Shown here piece by piece: positions 37,997-53,780 of a DNA stretch of 55,635 nucleotides. Numbering within the stretch: position 1 is the stretch's first letter; each line of letters starts with the position of its first letter. The notes beneath the pieces were generated by a model, which was given only the letters and a program-made list of their open reading frames with translations, ran no database searches and was not told the DNA's origin. The position numbers and the translations under genes were made by a program. This DNA comes from a virus: positions 1 to 55,635 of IMG/VR virus record IMGVR_UViG_3300026268_000003; one strand, given 5' to 3'.

Positions 37997-38405
37997 TGGA
38001 GCCGGGGAGATTCGAACTCCCGTCCAGTCTGTTTTTTTCAATGAGTCATTCACAACTTAGTTAGGTTACTACCCTCCGAGAAGTTACCTACAAACCACCG
38101 ACTATTTTATTGGATAGTTCCGTACATCTTTATACTCATATGTAAGAGTTGGTGTTCAACTTATTTTATGCTCGGGTGTTAAACAACCCAAGGACTTACG
38201 CGTAAGCGTATGTCGGTTGATAATCCGAAACAGGTTCGTCAACATAGTTGTCAAACATCCGTTCAGAATTGGCGAATTGCCAATCAATTACCAACCCGTC
38301 TAGCGATTTATCGCCAATTAGGTTTGTGAGTCTTTTTTAGCGAGTCTTACTCAAACTCCGTTGCACTCAATTGTCAAATAACACCTGTCGAAACCTTTCG
38401 GCCCC
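37997..38405 (-). ncRNA. ssrA: tmRNA (ssrA), one-piece, phage-encoded
   Basis: The 5' end GGGGCCGAAAGGTTTCGACAG and the 3' end GGACGGGAGTTCGAATCTCC pair as the tRNA-like domain. The acceptor stem GGGGCCG/CGGCTCC keeps the G3-U70 pair that alanyl-tRNA synthetase reads, with discriminator A and no encoded CCA. The conserved GTGCAACGGAG follows. A single open frame with no stop runs through the mRNA-like part to TAA at about 38197, ending ...DYQPTYAYA. A likely resume codon is GCC near 38272 (tag ANSERMFDNYVDEPVSDYQP then TYAYA), but earlier codons are possible. Pseudoknots fill the 3' half. About 409 nt. tmRNA rescues stalled ribosomes; neighbours are phage genes on the same strand. Confidence 0.92.
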
Positions 38406-39260: not shown

Positions 39261-39269
39261 ATAAATATC
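39261..39269 (-). promoter_or_regulatory. GATATTTAT box upstream of 160-aa/117-aa/tmRNA genes
   Basis: Sense-strand GATATTTATAGTTGGGAGAA, 17 bp from ATG 39244. It would lead a transcript that also covers tmRNA. Confidence 0.45.
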
Positions 39270-40467
39270 AGTTCTTTAATAAATGTGGACTAGCTTCTAT
39301 TTGTCCAGCTCTTGACACTTCCACAAATTCTACTTTAGAATGATACTCACTAATATTGCTAGCACCGACATAGCTACATGAACTATTGATGCCATCTCGA
39401 ATATCATGTAAGATTCTTTTGACTTTCCCTTTGTATGGAATAATTTTGTGATTTCCTTCGACATTTTTATCGTTTCCTTTGAAATCCCTTGACGCGGAAC
39501 CCCTATACTTTTTAAATAATTGTTCGTTTGGCCATTCACCTACTTTTTCAATTTCGCCTGGACTTTCTTTCGTACCAGATAAAAGGGAGCCCAACATAAT
39601 CGTATCAGCCCCGCAACCAAGTCCTTTACAGACATCACCAATAGTACGAACACCACCATCAGCAATAACGGGAGTATTATAATTATCAGCAACGGCGACA
39701 GCATCAAGGAGAGCACTAACTTGAGGCACACCCACGCCTGTTCTAATTCTTGTTTCACATAATGAACCATTTCCCACTCCAATTCTAACCGAGTCCGCTC
39801 CTTGTTCACATAAAAATCGTACTCCTTCTGCCGTGGCCACTGACCCCGCGACGACTTCAACATTATTTTCTCCTTTAAGTTTACTTATAGCGTTACTCAT
39901 TAATTTATGATGACCATGTGCTATATCAATAAATAGTACATTACATCCATTATTTACTAATTCTTTTGCGCGTTCTAAATAATCACCTTTAACTCCAACA
40001 GCCGCACACAATGGTCGTTTAGACCAAATTTTTTCATCATGAATCATAGAATCTGCGAAATAAAATCTTTCTTTTAAATCTTTCCAATCTGATTTAGTAG
40101 GTGGACTATTCCAATGTCTTATACTACTATCCCATTCTTTCCATTCCTTTTCAATAGTTCTTTCTTCACCATCTGTAATGCCTGGTACTCCATCAAAATA
40201 TCTATCCCATTCATAATGTAATGATTTCATCATACGAGCGTGTTTCTCAATACTCTGAAATCTATGTATAACACCAACTCCACCCCAATCCATCATTTCT
40301 TTTGCCATATCTAATTCAGTTACGGTATCCATTGGTGAAGCAACTATTGGAATGGTTAATATAGTATTCTTGGTAAACCTTGTAGTCAAATCTACATCAT
40401 CACGAGATTCTAATTCAGAATACTTAGGAACTATATTTACATCATCATATGTTAATGTTTTTCTCAT
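39268..40467 (-). CDS. guaB: IMP dehydrogenase without CBS domains
   Basis: 399 residues. [19 protein letters not shown], the catalytic loop [18 protein letters not shown] (Cys237) and the flap KKYRGSAS are specific for IMP dehydrogenase/GMP reductase; the C-loop context fits IMPDH best. Normal IMPDH (~490 residues) has a CBS pair inserted after the first ~90 residues; here a ~60-residue charged segment ([14 protein letters not shown]...) replaces it, so allosteric nucleotide control is probably lost. It makes XMP from IMP, the first step to GMP, and would raise guanine supply. Phage copies are unusual. Confidence 0.88.
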
Positions 40468-40706: not shown

Positions 40707-41130
40707 TATATTTTTTATCCATTTTGTTTTTATACCATTCTTTATTAGGTTTATCATCAGTAGTATTCCACATTGACTTTTTAATTAACTCATCAATTGG
40801 TTTATTCTCTTCACCAAATCTTCCATCACTTTCCCATAATACATATAATGTAGTATCGAGAGCATCTGCAATACTTTTTAATAACATATAATCTTGTGTA
40901 AGATTTAAATCACCATACCACACTTTACCATAATCAAGTATCATTACATTTGCATTCCATACAATCAAATCCTCAGGATGTTCTTCTTGATATCCCCATT
41001 TAGTACCAGATAACATTCTGGCCATATAAAGACCATGAGACTCAAAATATTGCTGTATTCCTTCTACAATCATATCTGGTTTAAAGTCACTCGGATATTC
41101 ACCAGTTAATTTTATTGTTTTATCAATCAT
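40699..41130 (-). CDS. Unknown protein (143 aa)
   Basis: Start at ATG 41130 overlaps the deformylase stop as ATGA. 143 residues with mixed alpha/beta pattern, Trp-rich (GTKWGYQEEHPEDLIVWNAN, KVWYGDLNLTQDYMLLKSIA). The DLNLT...LYVLWESDGR layout is reminiscent of small phage-conserved proteins, but no family can be assigned. Confidence 0.55.
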   Translation of the reverse strand: MIDKTIKLTGEYPSDFKPDMIVEGIQQYFESHGLYMARMLSGTKWGYQEEHPEDLIVWNANVMILDYGKVWYGDLNLTQDYMLLKSIADALDTTLYVLWESDGRFGEENKPIDELIKKSMWNTTDDKPNKEWYKNKMDKKYNG

Positions 41131-41777
41131 GTTATCGGGCCTCCTATATAAATTTCCCAATCACCACTATCTATAAGTGGTTTAGCTTTTTTGTATTTAA
41201 TTTCTTTATAATCCTTACCATCTGTAATACCAACGATTTCGTTTCTTCCCCACTTCTTTGATACTCTACGTGGTTTTCGTTTTTGTTCTCTATCCATAAT
41301 GGTTAGTCCATTCAAATGGTCTATCTCGTGTTGGACACATACAGCCTCTAACAATCTTAGTTCTTGGTCTTCGTCTTTTCCTTTTTGTTCCCAACTACCT
41401 TTTACATCTTGAATAGTTTCTACTCCACTAAAATACCAACCAGCTTCTTCTTGTTCGCTTTGTATTATTACATTTCTGTATCGTTTTGTGTGAACGCCTT
41501 TCTTTGGAAATGATAAACAACCTTCATAATAACCTATTTCATCCCATTGTTTTGTAATAACGGGATTGATTAAGATAAGGGGCTCCCTAACATTAACCAC
41601 AGCAACAGCGGCGTCAATACCCACTTGGTTAGCCGCAAGACCAATACCATCCTTCCGTTCTGCGAGAATGTTGAGTAAATCTTTTGCAATAGATAATCCT
41701 TCATCTACTGATACCTTTCTTAGTTTTTTATTTATAACTGGATTATTTTCTTTAAAACAATCTATTACTTTATGCAT
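41127..41777 (-). CDS. def: Peptide deformylase
   Basis: 216 residues. All three metal/active-site motifs are intact: GIGLAANQ (45-51), EGCLS (85-89, Cys87 ligand) and QHEIDH (149-154). Removes the N-formyl group from nascent proteins. A ~35-residue insertion rich in Glu, Gln and Gly separates motifs 2 and 3. Marine T4-like phages often carry def, thought to speed maturation of phage or host proteins. Overlaps a small lipoprotein gene upstream and the 143-aa gene downstream. Confidence 0.93.
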   Translation of the reverse strand: MHKVIDCFKENNPVINKKLRKVSVDEGLSIAKDLLNILAERKDGIGLAANQVGIDAAVAVVNVREPLILINPVITKQWDEIGYYEGCLSFPKKGVHTKRYRNVIIQSEQEEAGWYFSGVETIQDVKGSWEQKGKDEDQELRLLEAVCVQHEIDHLNGLTIMDREQKRKPRRVSKKWGRNEIVGITDGKDYKEIKYKKAKPLIDSGDWEIYIGGPIT

Positions 41778-49266: not shown

Positions 49267-50448
49267 TTAACTCATAGAGTTAGCGTTTTCAATTTCATCT
49301 TCATTAAACAAATCATCAGAAGAACCATCAGTAATATATTTCTGAACTAATTGTTTAACATAAGTTCTTTCAGACTCAAGTCCACCATCATCCGAAAACT
49401 GAGGATAGATACTAACTTCAGCCGCCTCATCAAGTCCAAAACCATCATAAAGTAAACCGGCTACTTCAACCGATGTACGAGTAGAAACTCCATTAGTAAT
49501 TCTACCTGTTTCAGATTTAGACTCTGAACGAGTAGTGGTAGTAATAGAAGCAACAGACTCAAGTAATGATTCATCAACGTGAGGAAACATATACTTTAAA
49601 AGACCATACTCTTCATCAGAAGTTAAGACATCCATCTCAACAACAATGAATCTATCCATAAGGGCTTTATCCATAACCCTTGTAGAAGTATACTCATTAC
49701 CAACGTTAGCAGTAGCAACGAAAGTTACACCTTCTGCAACACTAACAGTTTCAGCACCATCAGCCTCATCCAACCGAAGATATCTTTGACCTGTATCTAA
49801 TACAGTCATCAAGATATTCCACGCATCAGGATGAGCTCTTGATAATTCATCAAGAAGAATCACAGCGTTAGGTGTACGAATAGCTTTAACAAAAAGAGAT
49901 TCAGAAAAATAAGTTCCATCCTTTTTATCAAAGTGAGTATTACCAATTAAGGTAGACCGAGGGTCTTGAGTAGCACCCAAGTTAAAGTAGAAATCAGGTC
50001 TATCCATCGCATTAACAAGTGACTTAGCAGCCATTGTCTTACCACAACCAGCAGGACCAGTCATCAACATATTCTTACCACGAACAGCTGACCTAACTAA
50101 GAACTTCCATTTAAGTTCTGACATAACCAAACCTTTAGGTTTAAGTTTATAAGAACTATGTATAAAGTTAAGTACTTCAGCGTGGTCACTTGGTACATCA
50201 ACACTTGACGTATCAATTACTGGGGCTGAAGTTGATTCAAAAACAGACATAGGAACTGACCACCAGTAAGGTTTACCAGATTTGTTAATCCTACGTTCAA
50301 GGGCCATACCCTTAGCATAAGCTTTCTTTCGAGTACCAGTTCCAATCTCAGATGTTAATTTGTTACCATCAACATCCCAAGCATTGAATCGGTTACCCGA
50401 CTTTTCGATTTTTACAACAACAGAATTGTTATTGTCAATATTAGTCAT
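49267..50448 (-). CDS. MoxR/CobS-like AAA+ ATPase
   Basis: 393 residues. Walker A GPAGCGKTMA (131-140), Walker B NAVILLDELSRAH (194-206), sensor region EGVTFVATANVGNEYTS and an Arg-finger-like RVMDKALMDRF: the MoxR/CobS class. The N-terminal ~70 residues form a small separate domain. MoxR proteins pair with VWA proteins to remodel complexes; such a VWA protein is encoded at 51125. A sigma-70-type promoter and a GGAG site precede it. Marine T4-like phages are often annotated cobS for such genes. Confidence 0.85.
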   Translation of the reverse strand: MTNIDNNNSVVVKIEKSGNRFNAWDVDGNKLTSEIGTGTRKKAYAKGMALERRINKSGKPYWWSVPMSVFESTSAPVIDTSSVDVPSDHAEVLNFIHSSYKLKPKGLVMSELKWKFLVRSAVRGKNMLMTGPAGCGKTMAAKSLVNAMDRPDFYFNLGATQDPRSTLIGNTHFDKKDGTYFSESLFVKAIRTPNAVILLDELSRAHPDAWNILMTVLDTGQRYLRLDEADGAETVSVAEGVTFVATANVGNEYTSTRVMDKALMDRFIVVEMDVLTSDEEYGLLKYMFPHVDESLLESVASITTTTRSESKSETGRITNGVSTRTSVEVAGLLYDGFGLDEAAEVSIYPQFSDDGGLESERTYVKQLVQKYITDGSSDDLFNEDEIENANSMS

Positions 50449-51124: not shown

Positions 51125-53275
51125 TTACTTCTCCAAGAATTTTTTATTCATTGTTTTAGCAACAGAAAGAACAGAAGTTACATCAATAAATTCAGCATCA
51201 GCACCATACATTCTTTTAAAAGTACCAGTGGCGTGACTTCTATCATATGAATCTCCAATGAAATAACTCATAACATGAACACCCATATAACGAATTTCAT
51301 CAACCATTTTTCTGGTGTGATTGATTGCAGTATCATGATGATAATCAATATCATTATTACCAAACATTGGCATCCCATCAGAAAAGTTTAAGAAGTAAGA
51401 ATCTTTATCTTTAGAAGTAGGAACAATATCACTAAGAATAGCTTCGAAACATAATCCTTCAGGAGTAGTTCCACTAGCTCTAAGATAAGGAAAAAGACTT
51501 CTAACTTTACGAAAGTTATCAATACGAGAATCATAAGCAATCAAAACAATAGGATATTCTGTAATAGAACCGCGTCTAGCATACCGACTACCACTTGTTT
51601 GTGTACTTCTGAAACTTACAACAACATCAACGTTAGAAATCATATCAACAGCTTTACAAAGAGCTACAACAGAAGTCATAGTGTTAGTCCACTTTGAACC
51701 ACCCATCGAACCACTAGCGTCAACTGAAATGTGAAGAAACGCATCAGAGTAAGATTCTACAAATGTATTTTGAAAAACTCTTTCATTACCAAAACCAAGT
51801 TCAGCAACTAATCTTTTATCAATACGACCAGAATCTAATCTCGTCCACTTAGTTTCACGACTCTCACCACGAACTTGAAGTTTTCTTCCAAGTATAGTTC
51901 CAAGTCTAATACCATCTTCAACATAACCTTCTTCATTTTCTTCATCACGATTATAGTAGTAACGAGAATACTTTGAAGTGGACAACATATTAATAGTATC
52001 ACTATCAATTAATTCTTTAGTTAATTTCTTAACCATAACAACTTTAGTAGGAGTTTTCTTTCCATAGTATCTATCTTCAATACCTTTAGCAACTTCAACA
52101 TAACTCATACCAGAAGATTCAACTGTATCTAAATCTCTTTTTTCTTTTTTGGTAACTTTCTTCTTAGAAATTTCACCATCCATAAATTTATTTTGTTTCT
52201 TGATAGCATTCTCAAGTTGTTTTTTCTGATTATCAGTAAGAGTAACTTCTTCACTTTTATCTGAAGAAGAAGAAGAACCACTATCCATTTCAGAGTTATC
52301 CAACATCTCTTTAAACTCTTCATCAGTAAGTTCTTTAGGTGATTTTTTATCTCCATCAGAACCTTCACCATTACCACTAGCAGATTGAGAATCAGAATCA
52401 TCACCTTCATCAGCTGGGGAATAAGAAACTTCACCAGTATCTGGGTCAACATTTTCAATACCATCTTTAAGATTATTCATTATAATTGAATAAACTTCAA
52501 GTGATACAATAAAAGCATCTTCAGTAGAATTTAACCTACTAATATTTTTTAAACCAATTTCATTCCAAATGTCACGAAGACCATTCAAAGAATTTAAATT
52601 AGTATTTTTATTAGCAAGATTAATAAGTCTAAACATATAAGAATCTAAATTCTCATTAGTATATTCATTTGAAATAAGAGCTTTATCAAGAATCTTTGAG
52701 TAAAAATACTTGTCATACATTGAATGGTAATAACCTTTATAACCAGGTGATGTAGTAAAAATATAATTATCAATTCGTCTATCTTCTACATAATTAAGGA
52801 TATTTTTTACAATCTCCATACCCTTATTTTTAGAATAACCTTTTTTCTCACCAAGAAGAAAATACTCTTCTGGAATACTATTTTCAAGATTCTTTAAAAA
52901 ATCAAAATCAGAAAGTTTAATATGTGAACCTTCATGAAGGGCGAGACCAACAGTAGAATCAAAAAGTTTATCATCTAACTTAGCAGAAATAGTAACGTTT
53001 TTACCATCAGTAAAACTATCACCATGTGAATTAAAAGTAACTTTAATATCTGGGTCACCAGTAACGATACCAACAAAGTTACCAACAGCTCTCCTATATG
53101 AAGAGAGGGCGATTAAATCAGTTTTTGGTTTTACATCTTCGTCATCAAATACCGAACCAGTATTATCCCAACCTTCATCTAACCAGAATGAACTGAAATT
53201 ATTAGTTTTATTAAGACTCCCAACAGAATACTTCTCACGAAGAGCCATGGGATTGAATTTTTTTGTTTCTGACAT
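51125..53275 (-). CDS. Metallopeptidase-like/VWA protein, partner of AAA (CobT-like)
   Basis: 716 residues from ATG 53275 (AAGGA site; the longer reading starts upstream of the promoter). N-terminal part: LALHEGSHIK (HEGSH, 114-118) and NYVEDRRID (~161-169), together the HExxH...ED(x)R(x)D pattern of a VWA-linked metallopeptidase domain. Then an acidic Ser/Asp-rich linker (CobT-like), and a C-terminal VWA domain with MIDAS DASGSMGGSKW and an Asp-rich TPEGL loop. Forms a MoxR-VWA pair with 49267 and is transcribed from its own early promoter. Target unknown. Confidence 0.8.
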   Translation of the reverse strand: MSETKKFNPMALREKYSVGSLNKTNNFSSFWLDEGWDNTGSVFDDEDVKPKTDLIALSSYRRAVGNFVGIVTGDPDIKVTFNSHGDSFTDGKNVTISAKLDDKLFDSTVGLALHEGSHIKLSDFDFLKNLENSIPEEYFLLGEKKGYSKNKGMEIVKNILNYVEDRRIDNYIFTTSPGYKGYYHSMYDKYFYSKILDKALISNEYTNENLDSYMFRLINLANKNTNLNSLNGLRDIWNEIGLKNISRLNSTEDAFIVSLEVYSIIMNNLKDGIENVDPDTGEVSYSPADEGDDSDSQSASGNGEGSDGDKKSPKELTDEEFKEMLDNSEMDSGSSSSSDKSEEVTLTDNQKKQLENAIKKQNKFMDGEISKKKVTKKEKRDLDTVESSGMSYVEVAKGIEDRYYGKKTPTKVVMVKKLTKELIDSDTINMLSTSKYSRYYYNRDEENEEGYVEDGIRLGTILGRKLQVRGESRETKWTRLDSGRIDKRLVAELGFGNERVFQNTFVESYSDAFLHISVDASGSMGGSKWTNTMTSVVALCKAVDMISNVDVVVSFRSTQTSGSRYARRGSITEYPIVLIAYDSRIDNFRKVRSLFPYLRASGTTPEGLCFEAILSDIVPTSKDKDSYFLNFSDGMPMFGNNDIDYHHDTAINHTRKMVDEIRYMGVHVMSYFIGDSYDRSHATGTFKRMYGADAEFIDVTSVLSVAKTMNKKFLEK

Positions 53276-53285
53276 TTTTTCCTTG

Positions 53286-53343
53286 TTTCTCATTTCGTTA
53301 TTAATATACGTATAATGCAAACAACAGTCAAGAGCTTTTTTCA
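53286..53343. repeat. 58-bp promoter repeat, copy 2
   Basis: See copy 1. The differing base is position 53325. Confidence 0.85.
53303..53331 (-). promoter_or_regulatory. Sigma-70-type early promoter for VWA gene
   Basis: TTGACT (53326-53331), 17-bp spacer, TATATT (53303-53308). The stop of the 150-aa gene lies in the -35 box, as at 50521. Confidence 0.88.
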
Positions 53344-53780
53344 ATATTTTTAATTATTTTTTTATAAACTTTATTCACTGCATCCATTTGTTTTGTGGAA
53401 AGTGACATTCTACCTTTAGCTTGTTTTGAAATATCTTTTAGAAAATTTGTCGTATTACGTTTGTAACCACTTGTCCAACTGGTTTTTTCAACGGAATCTA
53501 TTACCAAATTAATTTTTGGTACAACAGATTCTAACCATTTATACCTTTCGGCTTTATATTTTGGATTATCTCGTTCTATTATACCATCTATACAAGCTAC
53601 CATCTTATCAGTAATCCTACGACCACTAATTAAAGCAAGTAACATATCTGAAGTAAATTGGTCTGAAGACCCAGACTTCTCAATCTGTCTATTTGCGATT
53701 TCTTTTAGAGATTTTATTTTATCTCCATATAACTTTGAATTGTGTTCAATCCATTTTTGACGATTAGTCATTCGTTTCAT
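53328..53780 (-). CDS. Unknown early protein (150 aa)
   Basis: 150 residues, basic and helical, starting MKRMTNRQKWIEHNSKLYGD and ending NKVYKKIIKNIEKSS. Its ATG follows the -10 element by 5 bp, so the mRNA may be leaderless; a second Met at position 4 is an alternative. Likely an early host-takeover protein. No family. Confidence 0.55.
   Translation of the reverse strand: MKRMTNRQKWIEHNSKLYGDKIKSLKEIANRQIEKSGSSDQFTSDMLLALISGRRITDKMVACIDGIIERDNPKYKAERYKWLESVVPKINLVIDSVEKTSWTSGYKRNTTNFLKDISKQAKGRMSLSTKQMDAVNKVYKKIIKNIEKSS

Follow-up and report, generated by a model that had tools for sequence, protein, structure and literature searches.

Trans-rescue RNAs of the type described here have their closest counterparts in the bacterial one-piece tmRNAs (SsrA, RF00023; E. 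coli ssrA), with which the present RNA shares a tRNA-like domain bearing G3-U70, the pseudoknot PK1, an A four bases before the resume codon, a hydrophobic tag end and a stop codon in helix 5. In E. coli, the tag frame is set by A86, located four bases 5' of the resume codon (PMC2481249; structure in PMC8363625), and the A86C mutant has been proposed to form a helix around this codon, with a block of function as the suggested consequence (PMC2481249). Reviews give a range of 8-35 residues for natural tags and an alanine, sometimes a glycine, resume codon (PMC3968760, PMC8012679). The 2025 tmRNA database, in which 79 of 97,179 sequences derive from phages, lists 10 as the commonest tag length and 2-residue tags at the short end (PMC11915505).

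Like the tmRNAs of mycobacteriophages (Bxz1 and others) and of Bacillus phage G, the molecule studied here is phage-borne and one-piece. The tags of Bxz1-type mycobacteriophage and Bacillus phage G tmRNAs are of ordinary length. Both are listed in the tmRNA literature (PMC4131195). The RNA of mycobacteriophage DS6A is a phage-borne molecule with a tmRNA-like acceptor domain but no tag frame (PMC4131195), whereas the tmRNA analyzed here has a very long one. A further resemblance is to the marine phage tmRNAs of Melnitz and Pelagibacter phage Mosig, which are carried by marine myoviruses and are permuted two-piece RNAs (PMC9004378), in contrast to the one-piece RNA with an end-to-end RF00023 match reported below.

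The window, that is the whole stretch of DNA that was analyzed, is the IMG/VR virus record IMGVR_UViG_3300026268_000003 (55,635 bases). The original prediction had placed in it a phage-carried one-piece tmRNA with clear ends and a G3-U70 pair, and had suggested a search with the RF00023 model. This search returned a linear match over the full model length (positions 1-374) at 38405-37994 of the minus strand, with 87.4 bits (E 1.3e-32) against a curated Rfam gathering threshold of 47, and thus bears out the assignment; the features of the gene are collected in Table 1. Both strands of the acceptor stem are present, and G3-U70, the alanine identity element, is unchanged in all 18 aligned relatives. 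The discriminator A73 is followed by CAA and not by an encoded CCA. A permuted two-piece tmRNA is excluded by the linear match without swapped parts, and an anti-tmRNA of the DS6A type, consisting of the tRNA-like domain only, by the 39-codon tag frame under selection, which ends in YAYA(A) and a stop, as a one-piece tmRNA requires. Judged from its sequence, the locus is a tmRNA gene. It was not reported by an ARAGORN run on the window.

Table 1. Features of the phage tmRNA gene, in window coordinates.
Feature	Position	Strand	Basis
One-piece tmRNA gene of 409 nt, from its 5' end to the discriminator A73	37997..38405	-	RF00023, 87.4 bits
Acceptor stem, 5' strand GGGGCCG	38399..38405	-	Rfam alignment; G3-U70
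Pseudoknot PK1, stems GAGU/ACUC and UGAGU/ACUCA	38327..38358	-	Read from sequence where the Rfam alignment places PK1
A at -4 of the resume codon, counterpart of A86 in E. coli	38319	-	A in 96/96 distinct sequences
Predicted resume codon GGC (Gly)	38313..38315	-	A(-4) rule; 11 nt beyond PK1; codon selection farther downstream
Conserved hairpin GGCGA-UAAA-UCGCU, starting at the resume codon	38302..38315	-	Stem counts, randomisation, covariation
Predicted tag reading frame, 39 codons and UAA: GDKSLDGLVIDWQFANSERMFDNYVDEPVSDYQPTYAYA	38196..38315	-	Frame, relatives, codon selection
N-terminal tag module, codons 1-15, GDKSLDGLVIDWQFA in the window	38271..38315	-	Codon columns; dN/dS of codons 9-15
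Possible long-range helix, 5' strand GGUUGG	38291..38296	-	RNAalifold; hardly varies
Possible long-range helix, 3' strand UCAACC	38215..38220	-	RNAalifold; hardly varies
C-terminal tag module QPTYAYA, probable degron	38199..38219	-	dN/dS 0.16-0.19
T arm GGGAGUUCGAAUCUCCC	38005..38021	-	Rfam alignment and relatives; 5 pairs, three changed on both sides
Acceptor stem, 3' strand CGGCUCC, U70 opposite G3	37998..38004	-	Rfam alignment

Relatives were collected by several routes. The neighbouring IMP-dehydrogenase-like gene (39268-40467) served as bait and yielded 24 viral loci, most of which have a tmRNA at the corresponding place. A scan with a pattern derived from the tag returned 101 stretches, a second pattern, built on the 3' half of the tmRNA and independent of the tag, returned 104, and in a tag-alignment scan 113 stretches encode a relative, with 80 of 80 lying inside a tmRNA body among the matches listed. 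Together, tmRNA relatives were found on more than 100 IMG/VR contigs and comprise 96 distinct tag frames, all of them open and 34-43 codons long except for one of 49 (L058). A long tag was recorded for 102 of the 108 3'-pattern loci with enough upstream sequence by a script that used only the first two residues of the tag motif; in the remaining six, the script chose another start, yet the long tag is present in earlier listings.

Several members of the collection deviate in detail. L058 and L093 have lost the stop codon at the usual end of the tag, so that their frames continue to 49 codons, and the tag of L082 terminates in a tandem YAYAYA. The tmRNA 3' of the tag is mosaic (window 37997-38195 compared with L008, L015, L007 and L013): phages with different tags have 3' bodies that hardly differ from that of the window, and the body of L007 is common to L013, which suggests recombination within the tmRNA gene. 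The 131-kb record G033 (L011) encodes an IMPDH-like protein of 71% identity, but contains no tmRNA match in its 131 kb, so that some of these phages may lack the tmRNA.

The genes around the tmRNA and the nearest named relative were also inspected. Just upstream of the tmRNA lie the genes for the IMP-dehydrogenase/GMP-reductase-like protein and for a peptide deformylase (41127-41777). Farther away, the protein encoded at 49267-50448 belongs by its match to a CobS-like AAA ATPase family of phages annotated as 'porphyrin biosynthesis' (phrog_249), and the product of 51125-53344 weakly matches a 'cobalamin biosynthesis protein' family. LR756508.1, a 484-kb uncultured phage, is connected to the window by baseplate and IMPDH-like genes (37-44% identity). 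At about 414804-414915 (L130:2919-3030), this phage encodes a 112-nt RNA with 58.2 bits to RF00023, in which G3-U70 is kept and the whole middle, comprising PK1, the tag and the other pseudoknots, is missing; it thereby resembles the tag-less DS6A RNA with its tRNA-like domain only. In bacterial genomes, the tag pattern gave three matches. Two of them, in Pedobacter, lie outside any tmRNA, and the third is a 7.5-kb phage contig binned in the MAG TMED198, whose own tmRNA tag is short (ADYGYAAAA). TMED198 is at best a weak host clue, because the link rests on the binning of a phage contig.

An open frame of about 46 codons ending in QPTYAYA had been predicted, and the window indeed contains 46 codons without a stop (RNA 70-207), followed by UAA. 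The start of the tag within this frame was assigned by comparison of the relatives. Relative to the position of the GGC codon, which in the window lies 11 nt beyond the last base of PK1, all 96 distinct sequences have an A at -4 and a U at -1; if the start were shifted by one codon, -4 would be a U in the downstream case and mostly a C in the upstream case. On these grounds the encoded tag is 39 residues long, counted from GGC 38315, and the expectation of an unusually long tag with an atypical end was correct. The GCC near 38272, favored by the original prediction as the start of a 25-residue tag, is ruled out by the A(-4) rule, the distance to PK1 and the purifying selection upstream of it. 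Among the relatives, the first residue of the tag is G, S or D (GGC/GGU, AGC, GAC).

Selection at the codon level gives a second view of the same frame. The consensus of the family tag reads [G/S/D][D/E]xSLxGLx[I/V]DWHLA, followed by a variable linker and QP[T/S]YAYA(A). In 95 aligned frames, codons 9-15 show a pN of 0.08 and a pS of 0.61 (dN/dS 0.07), and the effect is gone when the block of codons 9-18 is read in the other two frames. As part of the loci had been picked by the tag pattern, a second calculation used 58 distinct 3'-selected frames, in which codons 9-15 gave a pN of 0.075, a pS of 0.598 and a dN/dS of 0.066; dN/dS in the two alternative reading frames was 0.73 and 3.19. A ratio of about 0.07 confined to this frame argues that codons 9-15 are translated; since they lie upstream of GCC 38272 and of the starts chosen by ARAGORN, those starts are too late.

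These data bear directly on the possibility that translation resumes downstream, at GCC 38272 or at an ARAGORN-type start that would give 11-24 residues, and that the conservation farther upstream is that of an untranslated RNA structure. ARAGORN does propose such starts in relatives and the upstream region is partly conserved as RNA, but the starts disagree between relatives although the sequences align, codons 9-15 vary mainly synonymously (pS about 0.60, pN 0.08) and only in this frame, and the A(-4) rule points to the GGC position throughout. Such a shorter tag is therefore highly improbable, and the ARAGORN-type starts were rejected on the A(-4) rule and the codon-level selection farther upstream.

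Within the 39-residue tag, constraint is unevenly distributed. None of the 95 aligned frames departs from L5, G7, L8, D11 and W12, and the QP[T/S]YAYA end has a dN/dS of 0.16-0.19, whereas the linker reaches 0.62. The pooled dN/dS of 0.85 for hairpin codons 1-5 is uninformative on coding, because RNA pairing holds their synonymous sites. As read from these substitution patterns, the tag consists of an N-terminal and a C-terminal block, both under purifying selection as protein, with a free linker between them. No usable match to the tag was found in Pfam or PDB, and its motif has no further copy in the six frames of the window. A folded domain was considered and rejected, as AlphaFold2 gives no confident fold (pLDDT 60, pTM 0.15).

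The first codons of the tag are at the same time part of an RNA structure. A stem of 4-7 bp, whose 5' strand starts with base 1 or 2 of the resume codon, is present in all 38 distinct 3'-selected sequences (resume codon to GGG), and stems of at least 5 bp occur in 37 of the 38 (97%) as against 34% under codon randomisation that preserves the amino acids. In an alignment of 26 variants, 98.5% of the cells are paired, compared with 25-45% in slid-partner controls, a count to be read with care, since relatedness among the sequences can lift it above the shuffles and five cells are few; the synonymous randomisation provides independent support. Two pairs of the hairpin show compensatory changes, from GC to AU and from CG to UA, and its codons GGC, TCG and AGC are rare in this phage. 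The excess of stems over randomisation and the rare codons argue that RNA pairing, and not protein sequence alone, is selected. By these criteria the resume codon belongs to a conserved hairpin, while the four bases 5' of it remain outside the stem. This arrangement is notable in view of E. coli, where the helix proposed for the A86C mutant has been regarded as a possible block to function; the hairpin might thus hinder loading, which counts against the explanation favored below.

A different pairing had originally been put forward as a control element of the tag, namely the inverted repeat AATTGGCGA/TCGCCAATT. Its two arms are present in the window and perfectly complementary over 9 bp, but both are found in only one of 96 distinct relatives, the window type itself, and the core of the 3' arm, TCGCCAAT, in three. 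The proposal thus did not hold up, and control of the tag by this repeat is extremely improbable. Its 5' arm overlaps the resume-codon hairpin described above, a distinct structure that is shorter and conserved. RNAalifold additionally calls a long-range helix, GGUUGG/CCAACC, which would enclose most of the tag frame; it is plausible, and unproven because its strands show hardly any variation.

The best reading of the locus is a working tmRNA, since the biochemistry of trans-translation is established, the tRNA-like domain is intact and the tag is under selection. It is very likely that this phage one-piece tmRNA takes part in ordinary trans-translation with an exceptionally long, two-module tag. 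The RNA would be charged by the host alanyl-tRNA synthetase and loaded into stalled ribosomes by SmpB of the host, which would have to serve because no smpB was found in the record; none was detected in the 12 larger relatives either, all records being fragments, and no ClpP was found in the window. The frame would be set by the A at -4, the hairpin at the resume codon would be melted by the ribosome, and the stalled protein would gain an alanine and 39 residues, of which the YAYA(A) end is the probable degron for host proteases.

A function as a decoy, for which the tag would be of little importance and the tRNA-like domain would titrate SmpB or the alanyl-tRNA synthetase of the host, has a precedent in the titration proposed for the tag-less RNA of phage DS6A (PMC4131195). 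RNAs reduced to the tRNA-like domain exist in phages, including LR756508, the nearest named relative, but the strong purifying selection on the tag and the retention of the whole pseudoknot and tag region make this function very unlikely for the present family.

Within the preferred reading of a working tmRNA, what the N-terminal module and the hairpin do is a matter of conjecture. The invariant SLxGLx[I/V]DWHL segment probably either docks on a partner, which would be a proteolytic adaptor or the unfoldase, or blocks a host factor, and the hairpin probably shields the resume codon, until SmpB delivers it, from unwanted pairing or initiation. The alternation of hydrophobic and polar residues in L-x-I-D-W-H-L suggests, as a conjecture, a short added beta strand that would dock on the partner; this idea lacks structural support, because the tag has no confident AlphaFold2 fold. 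It was also considered that the tag is a conventional but long degradation tag, in which the N-terminal segment is a mere spacer that aids protease engagement and has no partner of its own. The C-terminal end resembles a normal hydrophobic degron and the absence of a confident fold would suit a spacer; however, a spacer should not keep five residues invariant beside a linker that varies freely in sequence and length, and this alternative appears rather unlikely. Only tentatively, and at somewhat less than even confidence, the N-terminal module is proposed to be a second signal that directs either the rescued proteins or the peptide itself to a particular partner of the host or the phage, with the hairpin as a gate opened only by SmpB-guided loading.

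Unlike bacterial SsrA RNAs, whose tags mostly have 10 residues, the long-tag phage family carries Gly, Ser or Asp resume codons, a conserved hairpin at the resume codon and a conserved N-terminal tag motif. With 39 residues in the window and 34-43 in the relatives, the published span of 8-35 is exceeded, a span that is reported and not defining. No credible match to the long tag was obtained in the phage collection of named phages, in which DNA-similarity matches to the window tmRNA are short and cover mostly the T arm and the acceptor end. In a non-exhaustive search of the open-access literature, no description of the long tag was found, nor of a hairpin-gated resume-codon step in other tmRNAs. 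The family as a whole would be hidden from current annotation because ARAGORN misses or truncates these tags. A resume codon within a conserved hairpin fits oddly with the suggestion made for the E. coli A86C helix and bears on how the tag template is loaded. The family offers a set of over 90 naturally occurring tags that divide sharply into an invariant motif at the N-terminus, a linker free to vary and a degron at the end, which would make the question of tag content beyond a degradation signal directly testable.
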